The position numbers and the translations under genes are program-made. Below the pieces are notes generated by a model. That model worked only from the letters and a program-made list of their open reading frames with translations, did no database searches and was not told the origin of the DNA. This document shows positions 2,358 to 39,743 of a stretch of 64,000 nucleotides of DNA, one piece after another (position 1 is the stretch's first letter; each line of letters opens with the position of its first letter). The DNA is from Microbacterium sp. (lineage in GTDB: Bacteria; Actinomycetota; Actinomycetes; Actinomycetales; Microbacteriaceae), in assembly GCA_013823625.1 (NCBI GenBank), contig PNMM01000003.1, forward strand, positions 186,001 to 250,000, written 5' to 3'.

Positions 2358-5300
2358 CTAACGCAAGTCTCGCAATCGCGCCGTCGGCTCACCCCCGTCG
2401 CCCGCCCGACGCTCTGAGCCGACGGCAATCACGAGCAGCACGATACCCACGACCGCGAGTGTGATCCACCACGGCATGGCTTCGATTCCGCGCCCGATCT
2501 GCACCGAGAAGGCCAGCACGTTTTCGACCGGCAAGATGATCATGCCGAGCACGAACGGTGCCGCGAGGCGCCAGCGCACGCCGACGAGAATCGCCACGAG
2601 CGCGAAGGCCATGACGAGCACGGCACGCCAGGTCTGCGGGTCGGTCGCGGTGGCAAGCATCGACGCAACACCAGTACGACAATGCCGGGGCTCAGCAACG
2701 CCCACGATCCCCTGCGGCCCACGGGCCAGTGGTGCAGGGGGGCGGATGCTGCGCTGGGCCCGCGCACGAAGGTGATAACTCCGGCGAGCAGCAGCATGGC
2801 CCCGAGTGGCACCGAGAACGCCTCGACGCGCACAAACTCGCGCGAACTCCATGCGACGATCGCGGTGACGAGGGCGAGAGCGAACAGCACCCACGCGCGC
2901 GGCAAAGCGGTCGCATGAGATCTCTCGCGCCACACCGCCACGACCATCGTGATGAGAAGCGCCAGACCAACAAGGCTGATCACCCAGACGGGGAGCGGGT
3001 CGACCTCGATCGCCGAGCAGGCCGCGACCACGAGAGCCGTGATGGCGGGCACGAGCGCCCACCGGCGCTGATCCGGCGTCGCGTCGCGAGCGAGCAGAAG
3101 CCCCGCGATGGCAGCGGGCACGGCACCCGCCAGGGCGAGCGCGAGCGCCAGAGCGATGGGAGCGAGGGTGACGGTGGACGGAGCATCCACCACATCCAGA
3201 CCGATTCCGAAGCGTGTGCCCTGCGCCGCGCCGGCCATGCTCGCGACGATCGCTGCTCCCAGGGTTGCTGCGCGCAGCGGGGAAAGTCGGCCCGCCACAC
3301 CCGGTCGCCCGGTCGCGAGTAGTGCCCCGACCACCGTGAGTCCGGCCGCCGTACTGAGCAGGGCGATCGTGCGTGCGGGCGAGGGGTCGTCGCCGGCGGC
3401 GATGAGTCCGAGCACGGGCAGGATCGCGCCGAGCAGGCCCGCGCCGTACAGGCCAGCTCGTGGTCGACCCCGTGCCGTGAGTACGGTTGCCACGGCAACG
3501 ACGGCGAGTGCCGGCGGAAGCAAGTGAGCTTCGGGCGAGGTGACGCCGAGCACGAACCACCCGCACCACAGCGCGGCCGTGGCGATGATTCCCGACAGCC
3601 ACCAGTACGTCGAGATGCGTCGAACCGCTGCAGCGGCGCCCGCGCCGAGCGCGAGCAGTGCGAGCACGAGGGTCGTGATCTCCAGACCAGCGGCATCCCG
3701 CGTGATTGAGAGCATGATGGCGATCGCCGCGGTCAGCCACGTCGTCACCTCGAGGGCCAGCACGACGGTGTTCGCGTCGTTGTCGTCGAGGCCTCGGGCT
3801 CGCAGCGCGGCCTCGAGCCGCGAGAGCACCGGCAAGGTGCCGGCAACAACAGCGGCGATCACCGGCAGCACGAAGGGCGAACCGCTCGATTCGAGCGCGA
3901 CCGCACCGAGGTTGACGATCACCACCGCGATCGACGGCACGATCGCGGCGGCCGCAAGCGCGCGCACGGCTGCGCTCAGGGCTCGACGGTGGGTCAGCAT
4001 GACACTCACCGCGAGAACGATGAGCGTCGAGGTCGAGAGCATGACCCAGGCCGTGCGCTCAACGAGCACAAGGCCCACCGCCATCAGGGCGGGTACCACG
4101 GCGACGATGAGCAGCGTCATCCAATAGTCGGTGCTCACGCGGCTGATGAGCGTGGCCGCGACGGCCACGAGCAGGCCGGCCGTCGCGGTGATGCTCACGA
4201 GCCCGACGAACTCGATTCCGGTGAGCGAGAGAGCGCTCGCCAGAATCACCAGGGCATACGCCGAGCCGACGGCGAGGTGCGCCGGGCGGAAGACGCGCGG
4301 CACGGTCATCGCCAGCGCCACGAGGGCGGCGAGAACGGCGGGCGCAAGCGTCACCGCGAGACCAACCGAGCCCGACGAGCCCCACGAGAGCGATGCCGCG
4401 ATGACGAGGGCCGCGTGCGCCGCGATCACAATCGGCACCCGGTCGGCGGTGGAGGCACGGCGGCCAAGTGGGGTTGCGGTGAAGACAATGGATGCTGCGC
4501 CCACGAGCACGATCGCCGCAATTGCGCGCGCCACGCCGTCGACCTGCACGAGCCCCGTGGCTCCGACGCCCGCGAAGCCCAGCACCCAGAAGGCAGCCGC
4601 TCGGCTCGCAATGCTCGCGGCCGTGGGTCGACCGGCCCGGGCGCGGATGACCCGCGCGTGACTGGCCAGCACGGCGCTGACCACCAGCAACCCGAGCACT
4701 GCGGCCAGGCCGGCGGCTGCCGTGCTCGCGTCGACGGCCACTCGCTCAGCGTTGACGAGAGCAATGAGCGCGACGAGCCCGGCGAGAGACGCTGCGGGGA
4801 GCACGCTCACGACGACCACACTCATTGCACCGGCGAGCACGGTGCTGCGGCGCACAGAACGCTTCGACGTCGTGAGTGCCGTGAGACCGATCAATCCGAC
4901 TCCCGCGGCGAGCGGAACGATCACCACGAACGCGTACTCACCGCCGAGGGGCGCGGTATCAAGCGCAAACGTCGCGAGCACGAGGGCGAGCGCAACGCTT
5001 AGCCCGGCGACACCGCTGAACAGTGCACGCAGCGCGTGTCGGGCCGAGCGACCCACCACGGCGCCCACGCCCAACGCCGCGGCGCTCAACGCGAGCCAGC
5101 GCGGGTCGCCCACGGGCGGCAGGTCAAGCGCGAGCCAGACCAAGAGCGTGAGGGCGATGAGCTGCACGACAACGAGCAGCGCACGTTCGACGCGCACGTC
5201 CACCCCCCGACGACGCTCGAGCACCCTCGCCGCCTCGATGAGAGCCAGTGCCGCCGCCGCTGAGCCGAGAGGCCCCCACAGCGGAATCGATGCGTCGGTG

Positions 5301-6019
5301 AGCGCGGCGCTCGCGAGCAGCGGAACGAGGGGGAGGGCGAGGGTGCCGGAGAGCATCCACGACCGAATGCGCGTGCGCAGCCCAAGTGTGAGCGCGAGCG
5401 AACCGCCCACGAGTGCCCCGATCGTCGCGCCCGCCCACGGGTTAGCGCCCGCGGGCGCGAGCTCGCCGAGTGCTGCGGCCGAGAGCGCGACAAAGATGAC
5501 GCCGAGGGCCGCGACGCACTCCGCCGAGACGCGCAGGGCGCGGCGCATGAGCACGGGGGCTCCCGCCACAAAGAGCACGGCGGCACCGCCGAGCACGGCC
5601 GCGCGGGCGATCGGGTCGGTCAGGTCGGGGTTGAGAAATGTAAAGACGAGGGCGGCCGTCGCCAAGAGCCCGGCGCCGGCAACGGCGAGCACCGATTGCA
5701 GCGTGGTGCTCGCGCGCGCGGGAGCTACTTGCGTTGGGGGTGCAACCGCGGGCGGGGCGGCAACCACGGCGGCCCGGTACGGCTCGACCGCTTGCTTCGG
5801 GATGCTCGCGACAACCTTCTCGAGGGTTGTCAGTGCGGCTGCCGCTGCCGTCGCGGCTGTCCAGACGGCGACCCCGGTGTCGCCGCGAAGGTCAGCGCCG
5901 CACGTCGTGCAGAGTCCGTCGCGCAGCGTTCGGCCACACACCGGGCAGCGCGTTGCGTCGCGTAACTGGTTGACGACTGCGGTGCTCCAGTGCGTCGAGC
6001 GCGTGATCGGCGTGCTCAT
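2358..6019 (-). pseudogene. Giant polytopic membrane protein (SCO7613-like), with a frameshift near its 3' end
   Basis: A frame of about 1117 codons from ATG 6019 is interrupted near 2668. In that frame the tail becomes an Arg/Pro/Cys-rich nonsense run, while the next frame continues with a natural hydrophobic tail (ASMLATATDPQTWRAVL...) and stops at TAG 2358. One missing base in the GTGTT|GCG context around 2665-2671 explains both, giving about 1220 residues in total. The N-terminus has a zinc ribbon (Cys25, Cys28, Cys37, Cys40: CPVC and CTTC) followed by some thirty membrane segments. This resembles the actinobacterial 'SCO7613 C-terminal domain' membrane proteins of unknown function. ATGA overlap with the upstream Cro/C1 gene indicates translational coupling. 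A real mutation and an assembly error cannot be distinguished here. Confidence 0.75.
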
Positions 6020-6237
6020 GCGTTGACCTCGTCGTCAGGGGCCCAGACCAAGATGTCGCCCGGTTGGCACTCGAGTACTCGACAAATCGCTTCCAGTGTG
6101 GAGAAGCGCACGGCCTTGGCGCGGCCGTTCTTGAGCACCGCCACGTTAGCCGGCGTGATATCGATCGCGGCGGCGAACTCGCCCACCGACATCTTCTTTT
6201 GCGCCAAAAGCACGTCGATATTGATGATGATGGGCAT
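6016..6237 (-). CDS. Small Cro/C1-family (XRE) regulator, YozG-like
   Basis: This 73-residue protein is almost entirely one helix-turn-helix domain: residues 16-45 (KMSVGEFAAAIDITPANVAVLKNGRAKAVR) contain the recognition helix, and the C-terminus has the LEAICRVLECQPGDIL segment common to small YozG-like repressors. ATG at 6237 overlaps the stop of the DUF2975 gene upstream (TGATG), and its own stop overlaps the start of the giant membrane gene (ATGA), so three genes are coupled. DUF2975-XRE pairs are widespread. The regulator probably binds the palindrome at 6722-6757 and controls its own operon; that is inference. Confidence 0.9.
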   Translation of the reverse strand: MPIIINIDVLLAQKKMSVGEFAAAIDITPANVAVLKNGRAKAVRFSTLEAICRVLECQPGDILVWAPDDEVNA

Positions 6238-6713
6238 CAGACCACCTCGGCCAAGTCGTTCTCGAGTTGTGTTGCTTTGCGCAAGAGCCCGCGCAGTACG
6301 ACCACGAGCAGCGCAAGCAAGCTGCCGACGACTACTCCGAGCACACCGAGCAGGGCAATCGACGGTGTTGCGGCCTGGGCGCTCGTGATGACGACGAGCG
6401 AACCGAGCACGACGACCGTCGCGATGACGATCGCCACGAGAATCACGTCGACGTACCAGAACGCGCGAGCGTTGAAGATTTCTCCTTCGCGGGTAAGCGT
6501 CAGCAGGCGCCACACGCACACGAGGGCGGCCTGCAGGCAGAGTACGAAGACCGCTGCGGCAATCACGCCTGGCCACAGCAAGTACGCGAGGGGTGGGATG
6601 CGGTCGGCCATTTGGCTAGCGATCGCCGGCACCACCGCTACTTGGCACAGCACCAAGAGGGCGAGAAGCACGGCGATGAGCGCTTTGAGCGAGACGATCG
6701 TGATCCGGTTCAT
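6237..6713 (-). CDS. DUF2975 family membrane protein
   Basis: A 158-residue protein from ATG 6713, preceded by AGGAAC. Four membrane segments lie at about residues 5-28, 45-70, 90-113 and 122-146, with the short motif LTREGEIFN in the loop between the second and third, characteristic of DUF2975. Such proteins are nearly always encoded next to a small Cro/C1 regulator, as here (TGATG overlap), and may inhibit or anchor it at the membrane. No enzymatic residues are visible. It is the first gene of a three-gene operon ending in the giant membrane protein. Confidence 0.85.
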   Translation of the reverse strand: MNRITIVSLKALIAVLLALLVLCQVAVVPAIASQMADRIPPLAYLLWPGVIAAAVFVLCLQAALVCVWRLLTLTREGEIFNARAFWYVDVILVAIVIATVVVLGSLVVITSAQAATPSIALLGVLGVVVGSLLALLVVVLRGLLRKATQLENDLAEVV

Positions 6714-6721
6714 CGCGTTCC

Positions 6722-6757
6722 TATCGTTTGTCGGGCGATATCTATCGACAAACGATA
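6722..6757. promoter_or_regulatory. Candidate operator of the DUF2975-XRE operon
   Basis: A perfect 12-bp inverted repeat, TATCGTTTGTCG (6722-6733) and CGACAAACGATA (6746-6757), separated by 12 bp containing GATATC. It begins 8 bp upstream of the DUF2975 start codon, covering the ribosome-binding-site border and probable promoter. Its size fits two turns of DNA bound by a dimeric Cro/C1 repressor. Confidence 0.7.
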
Positions 6758-6982
6758 CACGGTGCCGACGGTTGCCACGCCCGTCGACCAAAGTGGTCGC
6801 AGCGTTGCCCCCGTCGAGGGATGCCCAGATAGTGAGTCGGCCCCAGAAGAGGGGGGTGCTCTGAGCTTTCGCCCCGAGCCAAAACCTGGGAGTGTTTCTT
6901 TATAGCTTTGGCACCTCCCATGCCACTGGCGCTCTACCCGACTACCCATCGGGCGAGCATCAACCCGAATGAGAGATGTGCC

Positions 6983-34057: not shown

Positions 34058-34572
34058 CCACCAAGAAACTCTCGGCCCGTGAACGCAACGAGCGGGCCGT
34101 CGCCGAGATGGCTGACACCGTGATGCGCGACACGAAGTGGGACTGGATGCGCACCCGTCGCGCGCGACTCACGATCGTTGGCGTGATGATCGCCATGCTC
34201 ATCGCGATTCCGGTCGCGTGGCTGACGCTGCCCGCGCTCGCTGCCCTCGGCGTCGTCGCGCTCGCGGCCGTCGTGTGGTGGGCGCTGCGCATGTCGGTGC
34301 GTGTCGTCGCCGATCTGCCCGACGAATACCTTGATGAGCGGCAGGCGCGCGTGCGTGACCGTGCCTACCTCGAGGCCTACCGCTGGTTCGCGAGCATCAC
34401 GCTGCTTGCCGCAACGGTCGCTCTCGTGTGGTTCGTCGCCACGAGCGAGAACGACCTCGTCACGGTCGACATCACGTGGGCCGGCGCCATGGCCGTCTTC
34501 TGGACCCTTGAGGGCCTCGCGCTCACTCTCCCGTCAATCGTGATCGCCCTGCGCGAGCCCGACCGCACCTAG
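34054..34572 (+). CDS. Four-helix membrane protein paired with XRE regulator
   Basis: A 172-residue protein with a basic N-terminus and membrane helices at about 41-58, 60-82, 108-130 and 140-164. The loop between helices 2 and 3 contains DLPDEYLDERQARVRDRAYLEAYRW, an acidic-basic helix that may contact the regulator. I do not recognise a named family, although XRE-linked multi-pass proteins of this kind are common in actinobacteria. It overlaps the regulator by four bases and ends at a long hairpin shared with arsC. Confidence 0.75.
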   Translation: MTTKKLSARERNERAVAEMADTVMRDTKWDWMRTRRARLTIVGVMIAMLIAIPVAWLTLPALAALGVVALAAVVWWALRMSVRVVADLPDEYLDERQARVRDRAYLEAYRWFASITLLAATVALVWFVATSENDLVTVDITWAGAMAVFWTLEGLALTLPSIVIALREPDRT

Positions 34573-34581
34573 AACGAAACG

Positions 34582-34618
34582 CGAGGGGCCCGGTCTGCTG
34601 AGCAGACCGGGCCCCTCG
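34582..34618. terminator. Bidirectional hairpin terminator
   Basis: A near-perfect 17-bp stem (CGAGGGGCCCGGTCTGC and its complement) around a TGA loop lies between the convergent membrane-protein gene and arsC. Confidence 0.8.
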
Positions 34619-34641
34619 TCGTGTTCGGGCGTTCGTCAGGT

Positions 34642-35064
34642 TCAGGCGGGGGCGATCTCCGCGACGAGAGCTTCGATGCGACGCTTGATGTCGTCGCGGA
34701 TGACCCGCACCGAGTCGATGCCCTGGCCGGCCGGGTCGTCGAGGGCCCAGTCTTCGTAGCGCTTGCCGGGGAAGATCGGGCACGCGTCGCCGCAGCCCAT
34801 CGTGATCACCACATCAGAGTCGACGACCGCCTGCACCGTGAGAATCTTCGGAACATTGTTGGCGATGTCGATGCCCTCTTCTGCCATCGCTTCGATCGCC
34901 ACGGGGTTGATCTGGTCTTTGGGTTCTGAACCCGCCGAGAGCACGGTGACGCGGTCGCCCGCGAAGTGCTGCAAGTAGCCGGCGGCCATCTGCGAGCGGC
35001 CGGCATTGTGTACGCACACGAACAGCACGGTGGGTAGAGGTGAAGTCTCAACTGTCTTCTTCAT
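34642..35064 (-). CDS. arsC: Arsenate reductase, low-molecular-weight phosphatase type
   Basis: A 140-residue LMW-PTP-fold reductase. The P-loop is Cys17-VHNAGR-Ser24 (CX5R plus Ser), the second block TMGCGDACP supplies Cys91 and Cys95, and Asp110 in DDPAG is the general acid. It reduces arsenate to arsenite in the cytoplasm, in actinobacteria usually with thioredoxin or mycothiol/mycoredoxin. ATG 35064 is chosen for the leaderless -10 box TATACT (AGTATA on the plus strand at 35072-35077), which an operator overlaps. It lies downstream of an ArsR-ArsC fusion on the same strand but has its own promoter. Confidence 0.92.
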   Translation of the reverse strand: MKKTVETSPLPTVLFVCVHNAGRSQMAAGYLQHFAGDRVTVLSAGSEPKDQINPVAIEAMAEEGIDIANNVPKILTVQAVVDSDVVITMGCGDACPIFPGKRYEDWALDDPAGQGIDSVRVIRDDIKRRIEALVAEIAPA

Positions 35065-35073
35065 GCTCAGAAG

Positions 35074-35091
35074 TATAGACACACATCTATA
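35074..35091. promoter_or_regulatory. ArsR-type operator in front of arsC
   Basis: A perfect inverted repeat, TATAGA (35074-35079) and TCTATA (35086-35091) with a 6-bp spacer, overlaps the arsC -10 box. The half-site ATAGA/TCTAT is shared with the operator at 36042. Confidence 0.75.
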
Positions 35092-35132
35092 TGTTGCACC
35101 ATCCGGATGCTCGACCCGAGCTGCCCGACTTC

Positions 35133-36044
35133 TCAGCCACGCGCCGTCAACGCGCTCAGCAGCCCGCGCACGCGCCCGTCGATGTCGTCGCGAATCTCGC
35201 GCACGCGGTCGAGGGGCTGCCCCGCCGGGTCGGCAACGGGCCAGTCGAGATACCGCTTGCCGGGAAACACCGGGCACGCGTCACCGCACCCCATCGTGAT
35301 AACCACGTCGGCGGCCCGCACGACGTCGTCGGTGAGGGGCTTCGGAAACTCGCCGCCGAGCGGAACGCCGATCTCGTCGAGCGCCGTGACGACCGCGGGG
35401 CGAATCGCATCGATGGGCGCTGACCCGGCTGTGCGCACCCGCACGCGGTCGCCACCCAGGTGACGCATGATGGCCGACGCAAGCTGCGAACGCCCCGCGT
35501 TCTGAACGCAGACGAAGAGCACGTCGATCGGTTTGCCCGCTGCTCGCTGGCCCGCGGCGTCGAGTGCCGTCGCCTCTTGTGCGCTCAGGCGCTCGCTCGC
35601 GAACTGCGCCGTGGCCGAGGGCAGCGCGCGGCCTCCCTCTCGACCGCGCAGAAGCTCATAGCTGTCGAGCACGACGCGCTGCACAGTCTCGCGCGAGAAG
35701 GTGCCCGCGAATCGCGTGCTGAGGTCATCGATGATGCGCTCGATCAGCTCGGCACTGATCGACTCGTCTGCCGTGCTCGGCGCCCAGTCTTCGAGGCGCG
35801 CAGCGACGGCCTCGGGCAGCGAATACCAGACCTCGCGCCCGCGAGGGGTTCGCTCAACGATGCCCGCCTCGTGCAGCACTCGCACGTGATGCGAGACGGT
35901 CGGCTGACGCAACGTCAGCGCCTCGGTCAGTCGGCCCACGGTCAGCGCGTGATCGTCGGCCTCGAGCAGCAGCCGAGCAATGGCGCCCCGCGTCGCATCG
36001 CCGAGCGCCGCCAGCTCGGGACTCACCGTGTCGCGCGCTCTCAT
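35133..36044 (-). CDS. ArsR-family regulator fused to an arsenate reductase domain
   Basis: A 303-residue fusion. Residues 1-90 form an ArsR winged helix-turn-helix (LTVGRLTEALTLRQPTVSHHVRVLHEAGIVERTPRGREVWYSL), 93-170 a three-helix linker of the type found before LMW-PTP domains, and 173-303 a full arsenate reductase: Cys179-VQNAGR-Ser186, Cys253 and Cys257 in MGCGDACP, and Asp272 in ADPAG. The HTH part contains no cysteine at all, so the usual Cys-based arsenite site of ArsR is missing; all cysteines lie in the enzyme part. The start ATG 36044 sits inside a palindromic operator, indicating autorepression. It is divergent from the aquaporin gene. Confidence 0.88.
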   Translation of the reverse strand: MRARDTVSPELAALGDATRGAIARLLLEADDHALTVGRLTEALTLRQPTVSHHVRVLHEAGIVERTPRGREVWYSLPEAVAARLEDWAPSTADESISAELIERIIDDLSTRFAGTFSRETVQRVVLDSYELLRGREGGRALPSATAQFASERLSAQEATALDAAGQRAAGKPIDVLFVCVQNAGRSQLASAIMRHLGGDRVRVRTAGSAPIDAIRPAVVTALDEIGVPLGGEFPKPLTDDVVRAADVVITMGCGDACPVFPGKRYLDWPVADPAGQPLDRVREIRDDIDGRVRGLLSALTARG

Positions 36045-36059
36045 AGACCTGAGTCTATG
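36042..36059. promoter_or_regulatory. ArsR-type operator between the fusion gene and the aquaporin gene
   Basis: A perfect 7-bp inverted repeat CATAGAC-CTGA-GTCTATG (36042-36059). It covers the start codon and the leaderless -10 box of the fusion gene (TAGACT, plus-strand AGTCTA 36052-36057) and lies next to the aquaporin -10 box, so one site could control both genes. Confidence 0.8.
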
Positions 36060-36067
36060 CGAGCGGC

Positions 36068-36073
36068 TACAGT
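36068..36073 (+). promoter_or_regulatory. -10 box of the aquaporin gene (leaderless)
   Basis: TACAGT ends 6 nt before GTG 36080 and 9 bp after the ArsR-type palindrome. Confidence 0.5.
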
Positions 36074-36079
36074 GTGGCC

Positions 36080-36775
36080 GTGACTGAGCCTTCTCCGACT
36101 GCCCCTGCCCGTTCCCTCGCCATCCGGATGCTCGCCGAAGCCCTCGGCAGCGCAGGCCTTATCGCCACCGTCGTGGGCTCGGGCATCATGGCCACCCGAC
36201 TGACCGACGATGTCGGGGTTCAGTTGCTCATCAACGCCGTGGCAACGGCGGCAGCCCTCGTCGTGCTCATCGTCGTGTTTGGGCCCGTGAGCGGAGCCCA
36301 CCTCAACCCCGTCGTTACCGCCGCGCTTGCGGCGCAGCGGCTCGTGCCCGCGCGAGAAATCCTGCCCACCGTGGTCGCCCAACTCATTGGCTTTGCCGCC
36401 GGCGCGGTGCTGGCCAACCTCATGTTCGGCGACGCAGCCGTGTCGATCAGCACCACCGTGCGCGCCGAGCCCGGGCTGCTGCTGGGCGAAGTGGTGGCGA
36501 CCGCGGGGCTTGTTGCGGTCATCCTGACTCTCGTGGCCCGAGGCCAGCAGAACTGGGTGCCGGCCGCGGTTGGCTTGTACATCGGCAGCGCGTATTTCGT
36601 CACGAGTTCGACGAGCTTTGCTAACCCCGGCATCACCCTCGGTCGCATGCTGAGCGACAGCTTCGCGGGCATCGCTCCCGAGAGTGTTCCCGCCTTCATC
36701 GCCGCCCAGCTCGTGGGTTCTGCCCTTGGCCTGCTGGCGGTGCGATTCGTGCTCGCGCCCGCGCCTCGCGACTAG
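36080..36775 (+). CDS. aqpS: MIP-family channel, AqpS-like (arsenite channel)
   Basis: A 231-residue aquaporin-fold protein with six membrane helices and two half-helix motifs that deviate from NPA: HLNPVV at about 79-84 and ANPGIT at about 187-192. Such variants occur in arsenic-linked aquaglyceroporins. It is divergent from the ArsR-ArsC fusion and shares its operator. In Sinorhizobium, AqpS lets arsenite made by ArsC flow out down its gradient, replacing ArsB; the absence of ArsB or Acr3 here suggests the same. GTG 36080 was preferred to 36074 for its promoter spacing. Its stop overlaps the convergent gene (CTAG). Confidence 0.82.
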   Translation: MTEPSPTAPARSLAIRMLAEALGSAGLIATVVGSGIMATRLTDDVGVQLLINAVATAAALVVLIVVFGPVSGAHLNPVVTAALAAQRLVPAREILPTVVAQLIGFAAGAVLANLMFGDAAVSISTTVRAEPGLLLGEVVATAGLVAVILTLVARGQQNWVPAAVGLYIGSAYFVTSSTSFANPGITLGRMLSDSFAGIAPESVPAFIAAQLVGSALGLLAVRFVLAPAPRD

Positions 36776-37443
36776 TAGGGCCGCGCGTCAATACCGTGCT
36801 CGAGGGCGAGAGCCTGCACCTCGAGGGCGATGTGGTCGCGCGTGGTTCGCATGCCTTGCTTGCCGCTCGTGCGGTCGAGGGCGACGTTCCATCGGCGAAA
36901 CTCGTGCCCCGCGAGGGCATCGAGTTCGTCGTCGCAATTGAGCACGACAATGTGGTCGGCTGCCGCGACAAACTCGGGGGCGATCGGCTTGGGGTATTCG
37001 CCGAACGCGGCAATGCCCAGTTCGTCGAGCGCTTCGGTGACGCCGGGTAAGACCCGAGCCGCGGGCGACTCACCCGCACTCACCACGCGCGTGCCCAGTG
37101 GCGCGACAGCGCGCATGAGCGCGGCTGCCAGTTGTGACCGGCCCGCGTTGCCCGAACAGATGAACAGAAACGAGGGCAACGCGCTGTGGAGTTGCCGCTG
37201 AGTGACCCAGCGCACGGCGTCGAGTCGGTCAGCGGCGAGTTGCGCTGCGAGTGAGCGCGCGTGGCTTGAGGGGTGATCGAGGTGCCGATACCGGCGAAAG
37301 CTATCGAGCACGATCTCTCGAACAGTGTCGCCATCGATGCTGTCGCGATACTGGTCGCCGAGCCGCAGGGCGACCCGATCGATCACGTCGAGCGCGTGCG
37401 GAGCGTGCACGGTCACAGGGCTGACCCCGCTTCGCGCGCGCAA
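36772..37443 (-). CDS. LMW-PTP/arsenate-reductase-like protein with N-terminal helical domain, altered active site
   Basis: A 223-residue protein: a three-helix N-terminal domain (about 16-86) like the linker of the ArsR-ArsC fusion, then an LMW-PTP domain with Cys96-SGNAGR-Ser103. The second block reads VLNCDDELDAL instead of TMGCGDACP, so Cys170 is kept but the partner cysteine is replaced by Leu; Asp190 remains. It may be a divergent reductase, a phosphatase or a sensor. The start is uncertain: TTG 37443 or GTG 37416. A PHO-box-like repeat and GTTCACG (37452-37458) lie upstream, shared with divergent ppk1. Confidence 0.75.
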   Translation of the reverse strand: MRARSGVSPVTVHAPHALDVIDRVALRLGDQYRDSIDGDTVREIVLDSFRRYRHLDHPSSHARSLAAQLAADRLDAVRWVTQRQLHSALPSFLFICSGNAGRSQLAAALMRAVAPLGTRVVSAGESPAARVLPGVTEALDELGIAAFGEYPKPIAPEFVAAADHIVVLNCDDELDALAGHEFRRWNVALDRTSGKQGMRTTRDHIALEVQALALEHGIDARPY

Positions 37444-37478
37444 GACGATCTGTTCACGTGTCTAGGCAACGGGCTCCT

Positions 37479-37496
37479 CGTGAACGTGCGGTGAAC
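37479..37496 (-). promoter_or_regulatory. PHO-box-like direct repeat between the phosphatase-like gene and ppk1
   Basis: On the minus strand, GTTCACC-GCAC-GTTCACG: two 7-bp units at 11-bp spacing, the arrangement bound by PhoP/RegX3-type regulators in actinobacteria. A third GTTCACG lies at 37452-37458. It is 38 bp upstream of the ppk1 -10-like box. Confidence 0.6.
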
Positions 37497-37547
37497 GCCA
37501 TGCGGCTCCCGTGAGTCAGTTGGGCGATTCCTGCCACAATGGGCCGC

Positions 37548-39743
37548 ATGCACGACGAAGGTCTGACAGACACGGGGTACCAGGTCGACGGTGGCGTGGG
37601 CGGCGACTTTGTCGACGACTACGACGAGTCGACAAGTGTTGATGACGGCACCCTGCCCGCCGACCGGTACCTCGATCGCGAACTCAGCTGGTTGCGCTTC
37701 AACCAGCGCGTGCTCGAGCTCGCCGAAGACGACGCTGTTCCCCTTCTCGAGCGGGTCAACTTTCTCGCGATCTTCGCGAGCAATCTCGACGAGTTCTTCA
37801 TGGTGCGCGTTGCGGGCCTCAAGCGGCGCATCGTGACCGGTCTGGCCGTACCCACCAACACGGGCCGAGCCCCGAGCGACGTGCTTGCTGACATCAATGC
37901 GCTCGCACTCGAGTTGCAGCACCGGCACTCCCGTGCCTTCCACGACCTGGTCAAGCCCGCTCTCGATGACGCGGGCATCCACGTCGAGTCGTGGGCTGAC
38001 CTGAGCGACACCGACCGCTCACGCATCGACGAGATCTTCGCGAGCCAGATCTTCCCCGTGCTCATGCCGCTCGCGGTTGATCCCGCACACCCGTTCCCCT
38101 ACATCTCGGGCCTCTCGCTCAACCTGTCGGTACGCGTGCGCAACCCCAAGACCGATCGCGTCGAGTTTGCGCGCCTTAAGGTGCCGACCGTGCTGCCGCG
38201 ATTCGTGCAGTTGCCCGATGACGGCTCGGGCCGGGTGCGCTTCTTGACGCTCGAAGATCTCATTTCGAACCACCTCGACGAGCTCTTTCCGGGCATGGAG
38301 ATCTTGGAGCATCACGAGTTTCGCGTCACGCGCAACGAAGACGTTGAGGTCGACGAAGACGAGAGCGAGAACCTCATTCAAGCCCTCGAGCGCGAGCTGT
38401 TGCGTCGACGGTTCGGCCCGCCCATTCGTCTCGAAATTACCGACGACATGGATGCTGTGACGCTCGGTCTGCTGGTGCGCGAGCTCGGCATCACCGAGCA
38501 AGAGGTCTACCGTCTTCCCGCGCCGCTCGACCTCGGTGGGCTCTTCGAAATCTCCAAGCTCGACCGACCGCACCTCAAGTACCCCAAGCACGTTCCCGTC
38601 ACGCCCTTGCAACTGCAGACCGCAGAGCCCAACACGGCGCCCGATGTGTTTGCCTCGATTGCCCGCGGCGACATCCTCGTTCATCACCCCTACGAGTCAT
38701 TTGCGACGAGCGTGCAGGCCTTTCTCGAACAAGCCGCGCGCGACCCCAACGTGCTCGCCATCAAGCAGACCCTGTACCGAACCAGTGGCGATAGCCCCAT
38801 CATCGAGGCGCTCATCGATGCCGCCGAGCGGGGCAAGGCCGTACTCGCGCTCGTCGAGATCAAGGCGCGGTTCGACGAGCAAAACAACATCGAGTGGGCC
38901 CGCAAGCTCGAGAAGGCAGGCGTGCACGTCGTGTACGGCCTCGTCGGGCTCAAGACACACTGCAAGCTTGCCCTCGTCGTGCGGCAAGAAAAGGGCGGCG
39001 CCCTCAAGCACTACGCCCACATCGGCACGGGCAACTACAACCCCAAGACCAGTCGCATCTACGAAGACCTCGGGCTCTTTACGGCCGATGACCAGGTGGG
39101 CAAAGACCTCACGCGACTCTTCAATGAGCTTTCGGGTTATGCCATCGAGAAGAAGTTCAAGCGATTGCTCGTTGCTCCTCGATACCTGCGGCGCGGACTG
39201 CTCAAGCTCATCGCGGTCGAGACTGAGAACGCGCGCGCTGGCCTGAAGGCGAGCATCCGCATCAAGCTCAATTCGCTCGTTGATGAGGCCATCATCGACG
39301 CGCTCTACCGCGCGAGCGCGGCCGGTGTCCCCGTCGACATTGTCGTGCGCGGCGTCTGCGCGATCGTGCCGGGGGTCGCGGGCTTGAGCGACAACATTCG
39401 CGTGCGCAGTGTGCTCGGGCGCTACCTCGAGCACTCGCGCATTTTCGCCTTTCACAACAACGGCGATCCGCAGGTCTACATCGGCAGTGCCGACATGATG
39501 CACCGCAATCTCGATCGACGTGTCGAGGCGCTCATTCGACTCGTCGATCCGTCGCACTTAGCCGAGATTGACGAGCTGTTCACCCTCACCATGAGTGACC
39601 GAACGGCGTCGTGGCACCTGCAGCCCGATGGCGATTGGAAACGCGTTCACCGTGATGAGCGAGGCAGACCGCTCGCCGACCTGCAGAATGTCACTATGAA
39701 CGCGATCGCGACCCGGCGACGCGGGGGCGCGGCTCGCGCATGA
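37548..39743 (+). CDS. ppk1: Polyphosphate kinase 1
   Basis: A 731-residue enzyme. The N-terminal domain opens with [18 protein letters not shown] (about 43-60), [17 protein letters not shown] follows, and the two phospholipase-D-like catalytic domains carry HHPYESF (about 381-387, His autophosphorylation region), [29 protein letters not shown] and, in the second, RYLEHSRIF. It polymerises the gamma phosphate of ATP into polyphosphate at the membrane. ATG 37548 follows CACAAT (37535-37540) by 7 nt with no ribosome-binding site. Its stop overlaps the mutT1 start (ATGA). Confidence 0.96.

Follow-up and report, generated by a model that had tools for sequence, protein, structure and literature searches.

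An ArsR-ArsC fusion lacking regulator cysteines: a possible one-protein arsenate sensor in Microbacterium

Results

The fusion gene and its surroundings

The window, a 64,000-nucleotide stretch of a Microbacterium sp. genome (2,445,973 bases in 4 contigs), contains an ArsR-ArsC fusion gene on the minus strand (35133..36044, 303 amino acids). Both domains are read in one frame without a stop, as in the ArsR-ArsC fusions of clusters C4/C7. An earlier note on this DNA had given the reading frame, strand, and length of the gene and had placed cysteines at residues 179, 253, and 257, all in the reductase domain; these proved exact, the protein has no others, and their codons lie at 35508-35510, 35286-35288, and 35274-35276. 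The closest named contig among the matches listed is a Micrococcales MAG at 85% identity.

Three domains of the fusion exceed their Pfam cut-offs: an ArsR-type winged-helix domain without cysteine (PF01022, residues 19-64, 35853..35990, minus strand), a three-helix 'Phosphatase-like_N' domain as in Cg_ArsC1' (residues 102-155, 35580..35741, minus strand), and an LMWP-fold arsenate reductase domain (residues 175-296, 35157..35522, minus strand). Assignment to the ArsR/SmtB family comes from NF033788 at 64.3 bits (cut-off 55) and PF01022 at 32.9 bits (cut-off 22). The NCBIfam arsenate reductase models match with scores below their cut-offs, and the sequence bears the signature of a thioredoxin-type ArsC of the Cg_ArsC1' kind (Phosphatase-like_N and LMWPc, a CX5R loop, C-x3-C, and DP). 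An AF2 model of the fusion monomer (mean pLDDT 91.6, pTM 0.75) has as its best PDB match 3t38, the C. glutamicum Cg_ArsC1'. We aligned 114 fusions, the distinct proteins among at least 122 full-length fusion ORFs from the matches listed, a sample and not a census, and found C179, R185, S186, C253, C257, D272, and P273 invariant in 114/114. A degenerate enzyme half kept for ligand binding only was ruled out, since the catalytic residues are intact.

Downstream on the same strand lies a stand-alone arsenate reductase gene, arsC (34642..35064, start ATG 35062-35064), which encodes an LMWP-type protein with the same cysteine pattern and is followed by a terminator-like hairpin of 17 pairs (34582..34618, minus strand; one was found, and shuffled sequences average 1.2). 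Divergent from the fusion is a gene for a MIP-family aquaporin (36074..36775, plus strand, start GTG 36074), likely an As(III) channel; its start is perhaps instead a leaderless GTG at 36080, after TACAGT (36068-36073). The NPA-type motifs of this aquaporin are NPV (GAHLNPV) and NPG (FANPGITLGR), and the commonest form in relatives is GAHFNPV with FANPAITIGR (11). At 36772-37443, on the minus strand and overlapping the 3' end of the aquaporin gene by 4 bases with its own 3' end, is a gene for a three-helix plus LMWP protein with 33% identity to fusion residues 86-295. Its Phosphatase-like_N match falls just below the cut-off, and its only cysteines, at 96 and 170, leave it one short of the triad.

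A conserved operator at two promoters

The palindrome ATAGA-N6-TCTAT occurs at two places in the locus. Operator 1 (ATAGACCTGAGTCTAT, 36043..36058) is an exact palindrome that runs into the fusion ATG (36042-36044) and contains a -10-like TAGACT (36052-36057, minus strand), so that the operator guessed at 36042-36059 in the earlier note was essentially right. Operator 2 (35075..35090) lies before the stand-alone arsC and overlaps a -10-like TATACT (35072-35077). No other exact site exists in the 2.45 Mb genome, and the reversed pattern, used as a control, gives 0.

The same pattern was searched in 60 related regions of the lineage of fusions lacking regulator cysteines (up to 14 kb each, 755,526 bases from 59 genomes, this one included). 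They hold 96 exact operators, none away from a fusion or arsC promoter (reversed control 0). The fusion-side operator is exact in 43/60 regions and has at most one mismatch in 53/60; the arsC gene is present in 57/60 regions, with the operator before it exact in 53 and within one mismatch in 57/57. Counted over the stretch upstream of all 78 close homologues of the fusion, an exact operator is present in 59 and one with a single mismatch in 11 more; among the other 36 fusions the exact operator occurs in none and a one-mismatch form in 7.

In 54/58 aligned regions the first base of the operator is at -14 relative to the predicted start, which makes the A and T of the ATG the final two bases of the palindrome. 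In the wider consensus ATAGACTnnnRTCTATG, positions 5, 6, and 16, which lie outside the search pattern, are conserved at 97-98% in the 58 regions, and a TAnnnT box sits 7 nt before the fusion ATG. A conserved -35 is absent from the 58 aligned regions, and 34500-37600 holds no sigma-70 promoter of consensus type. One 17-bp element (36042-36058), kept in 54/58 aligned regions, unites operator, -10-like box, and start codon, and the fusion promoter looks leaderless. The arsC copy of the operator extends as TCTATGCTT (G 43, C 45, T 53, and T 53 of 53), so that its right half holds a TATGCT-like -10. At the level of sequence, then, a conserved inverted repeat covers the fusion's own promoter, as for an autoregulated repressor, which the fusion would be.

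Absence of regulator cysteines across the lineage

In well-studied ArsR repressors, regulator thiols detect the product, arsenite. Residues 1-178 of the fusion are free of cysteine and hold none of the arsenite sites of As(III)-responsive ArsRs (types 1, 2, 3, and the Arsenicibacter type); in the alignment with fusion homologues, its residues at the CxC columns are threonine (35) and glycine (37). Cysteine makes up 0.49% of the 18,723 residues in 48 predicted genes of the window, a frequency at which 178 residues would be cysteine-free with a probability of 0.42. Since cysteine is rare in this genome, its absence from a single fusion is weak evidence: chance alone is a plausible explanation for one protein, and the case rests on conservation across relatives.

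Among 78 close homologues (at least 250 bits; L053 was set aside by hand), 76 are free of cysteine up to the catalytic one, and the absence of HTH cysteines that the earlier note had read from a single protein is therefore real. The other two each have a cysteine in this part, L041 at position 121 of its own sequence and L142 at position 34, and across the 78 proteins the two CxC columns hold cysteine in 1 and 0. The lone N-half cysteine falls in the three-helix part in L041, and also in L246, a fusion from the wider searches below; in L142 it falls in the first CxC column. The only conserved histidines in the N-half of the lineage, H52/H53 in the recognition helix, are common to other fusions, so they make no obvious replacement metal site; with no conserved candidate besides them, such a histidine site was ruled out.

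Other N-half residues are conserved, the charged or aromatic D16, R19, R70, W73, and Y74, and through the arginines the HTH itself might sense a non-thiol ligand such as arsenate or phosphate. This reading can draw on TtSmtB, an unfused ArsR/SmtB protein of Thermus whose release from DNA takes less arsenate than arsenite (PMC5658604). TtSmtB, however, has three cysteines, and the conserved residues would fit ordinary winged-helix folding and DNA contact; we regard a ligand site in the HTH as quite improbable.

The enzyme triad Cys179/253/257 is kept in 114/114 fusions. Because it is equally invariant in fusions that do have a CxC site, catalysis alone explains this invariance. As the fusion's only cysteines, the three could also form a relocated thiol site, in which As(III) would bridge two or three of them and weaken DNA binding: As(III)-responsive ArsRs place their cysteine sites variously (PMC11868830), and a complex of pI258 ArsC with arsenite exists in the PDB (1lju). 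Yet Cys179 belongs to the P-loop and C253/C257 would act in a disulfide relay, and catalysis would be expected to suffer competition from any stable As(III) site; moreover, the partner gene, an aquaporin and not Acr3 (below), argues for arsenate as the signal. Arsenite sensing by the enzyme domain thus seems to us unlikely.

Fusions with a CxC site and the number of fusion origins

The 36 lower-scoring fusions carry C-x-C-D in the HTH in 27 cases (19 as ESCVCDL), which is where type 1 ArsRs have their arsenite site, and lack it in 9. As the 27 were chosen by the motif C[VA]CD, a count of 27/27 would be circular, and the lineage count given is that from the tree, 27/31. This ArsR tree (79 columns, many weak forks), which took in 30 of the 78, has a branch with support 97/93 that unites the 27 CxC fusions with L058, L065, L078, and L096, all without CxC. 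Three of these, L058, L065, and L078, come from Promicromonospora; they nest with two CxC fusions (support 96/95), and each has one cysteine elsewhere before the catalytic one. Because of this nesting, independent loss of the CxC is the simplest reading, and the arsenite site was apparently lost again inside the CxC lineage. Two others of the 9, L053 and L147, nest in the lineage lacking cysteine in the trees and have N-half cysteines off the CxC columns; with both added to that lineage, its cysteine-free count is 76/80.

In a tree of the three-helix and reductase domains (PN-LMWP; 80 rows, 202 columns, with 25 of the 78), a branch with support 98/96 splits the Cys-less lineage from the CxC fusions, which share the side of most unfused three-helix reductases. 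Since the two kinds of fusion fall on opposite sides of this branch, the CxC kind with unfused reductases, they probably had separate fusion origins, and L054 and L063 look like a third. Four proteins labelled unfused (L083, L084, L099, and L193) group with the Cys-less lineage. The label may be wrong, since the matches listed for L084 and L099 span nearly the whole query.

Plasmid and class-wide searches gave further fusions, and eight class-wide loci were read. L244 and L246 each carry the operator twice in its exact form. L249, L251, and L254, more distant fusions from outside the family, of which L249 and L251 are high-scoring, have neither CxC nor an exact operator, so the CxC-less state is wider than the lineage studied, and the other three loci have no clear fusion. 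The place of the CxC in the HTH of L249 is taken by ASAGEL.

An HTH without a recognizable ligand site might also work as a ligand-independent autorepressor that holds arsC and the aquaporin at a low, constant level, leaving the fusion merely bifunctional, and an operator over the start codon would suit such tight autoregulation. Two operators kept across 60 regions would, however, be an odd design for an uninducible switch, and fusion to an arsenate reductase recurs in more than one lineage; we consider uninducible repression rather unlikely.

Aquaporin and Acr3 as partners

We called neighborhoods by codon bias together with tblastn, using a validated Acr3 query (TIGR00832, 436.9 bits). Among loci with at least 2 kb upstream, Acr3 is near 23/27 CxC fusions versus 1/48 Cys-less fusions, and an aquaporin is near 27/48 Cys-less fusions versus 0/27 CxC fusions, though the sequences are related and the Fisher p-values for these counts are uncorrected for descent. 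An arsC cluster follows both kinds (72/78 Cys-less and 20/27 CxC) and so cannot tell the lineages apart. Among the Promicromonospora fusions, L058 forms one run with arsC and a MIP gene, and a MIP gene also lies near L078; over the stretch examined Acr3 is absent from both, and L065 lacks Acr3 and aquaporin alike. An exception to the pattern is L148, CxC-less yet with Acr3. The Promicromonospora stretches concerned are 4480-6650 (L058) and 6071-6856 (L078), with a pyridine nucleotide-disulfide oxidoreductase adjoining in L058.

The Acr3 and ArsB models have no match in the genome under study (the controls matched in 7 and 6 of 14). Elsewhere this genome encodes a PF01758 protein, but the Acr3 model does not match it. 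For AqpS of S. meliloti, the two-way channel is described as useful only when arsenite arises within the cell (PMC6205960), and because a channel of this kind would help only then, arsenate is favored as the signal.

Other ArsR-like regulators

Family, pattern, and codon-pattern searches of this genome found no type-1 CxC-D-L site, and a type-1 CxC ArsR elsewhere in the genome was thereby rejected as a candidate. Six HTH_5 matches besides the fusion have no CxC in the HTH; there are 11 HTH_20 matches, of which the sequences read are those also found by HTH_5. One ArsR-like protein on another contig (L179, C2:133999-134145 and flanks) scores 25.4 bits with PF01022 and lies below the metalloregulator cut-off. 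It ends ...ELCWCIRKSRQMQSI, a C-W-C that forms a C-terminal thiol pair, and might sense thiol-binding ligands as a second thiol regulator in the genome.

A separate CxC ArsR lies within about 6 kb of the Cys-less fusion in 22/60 related regions, of which 20 also have a match to an ArsO-like flavoprotein; this hints at split control by arsenite and arsenate. The 22 regions are L194, L201-L207, L209, L212, L217, L224, L230-L232, L235, L237, L238, and L240-L243. The ArsO-like piece reaches 30 bits where the cut-off is 425, and the names ArsO and CoA-disulfide-reductase are our own labels.

These nearby CxC ArsRs, and the C-W-C protein in the present genome, would fit an arrangement in which another cysteine-containing ArsR-family protein senses and the fusion is a passive co-repressor. 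Set against it are the six other HTH_5 matches without CxC in the HTH and the absence of the CxC-D-L codon pattern, and we think this arrangement very improbable.

Discussion

A reductase domain as the proposed sensor

We propose that the fusion is a DNA-binding autorepressor and that its own arsenate reductase domain is the ligand-sensing part. Without arsenate, the fusion, presumably as a dimer, would sit on ATAGA-N6-TCTAT at the two promoters, where it would cover the -10 boxes of the fusion gene and arsC and reach the divergent aquaporin promoter. Arsenate would then occupy, or turn over in, the P-loop, reacting at Cys179 and next through the Cys253/Cys257 disulfide relay, and a change in the enzyme or three-helix domain would loosen DNA binding, so that arsC and the aquaporin are made. 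We would give an even chance to the proposal that the enzyme half senses arsenate or arsenate turnover and so releases the autorepressor.

That the enzyme domain may itself be the sensor had been suggested in the earlier note from the missing cysteines, with arsenate binding or an arsenylated or disulfide intermediate as the chemistry that might alter DNA binding. Taken alone, the missing cysteines of one protein argue weakly for it, and the ArsR-like protein ending in C-W-C in the same genome counts on the other side. The suggestion draws its best support from comparison: the site is missing lineage-wide and was apparently lost a second time, the triad is complete in every fusion aligned, and the genome has no type-1 site. 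More broadly, and with somewhat less than even confidence, such fusions may be widespread actinobacterial one-protein arsenate sensors in which substrate binding or the disulfide cycle controls the attached repressor, evolved more than once as an arsenite pump gave way to a passive channel.

A repressor with catalytic thiols only would sense substrate or catalysis and would be an arsenate-specific switch. The fusion would then serve to test allostery from enzyme to DNA and might become a part for arsenate biosensors. Fusions with and without CxC provide a ready natural experiment.

Comparison with known systems

ArsR-ArsC fusions were already known, and as far as the literature was searched, what is new is the Cys-less lineage and its operator: among the matches listed, titles and abstract openings gave no account of a cysteine-less fused ArsR or of an ATAGA-N6-TCTAT operator. 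ArsRC2 of Microbacterium sp. A33 reportedly acts as a repressor and shares an operon with ACR3 and arsTX, a context that resembles the CxC fusions and not the fusion described here. Fusions are known in Actinobacteria from clusters C4 and C7 (Firrincieli 2019, PMC6514093), where, as here, ArsR is joined to a thioredoxin-type ArsC, in several genera; an ArsR-ArsC2 fusion is also drawn in a figure legend of that paper, and its passages on C4/C7 do not treat the cysteines of the fused ArsR or its operators. Fusions in L. ferriphilum, Microbacterium, and Sinorhizobium are mentioned elsewhere in a passage that leaves their function open (PMC6205960).

On the regulator side, the fusion shares the ArsR/SmtB winged helix with the As(III)-responsive ArsR types 1-3 (R773, AfArsR, and CgArsR) and the Arsenicibacter type, which as described differ in having cysteine sites in the regulator (PMC11868830), where residues 1-178 of the fusion have no cysteine. 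The 5-N6-5 shape of its operator is also that of a quoted ArsR consensus, ATCAA-N6-TTGAT, and the same source describes a Paracoccus ArsR that is released by diamide (PMC9137774). TtSmtB of Thermus thermophilus, the arsC repressor with the greater response to arsenate noted above, differs in being unfused and in its three cysteines (PMC5658604). Brevundimonas ArsR^M, an ArsR-methyltransferase, likewise joins an arsenic enzyme and an ArsR-type regulator in one protein; its enzyme is a different one, and a figure legend gives As(III)-binding residues for it (PMC10190100).

On the enzyme side, Cg_ArsC1' (3t38) has the same three-helix N-domain and LMWP domain (target TM 0.91 and 0.95, with 43 and 42% identity) and differs in having no DNA-binding domain. 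The spacing of its catalytic C88/C162/C166 (PMC6514093) equals that of C179/C253/C257 in the fusion.
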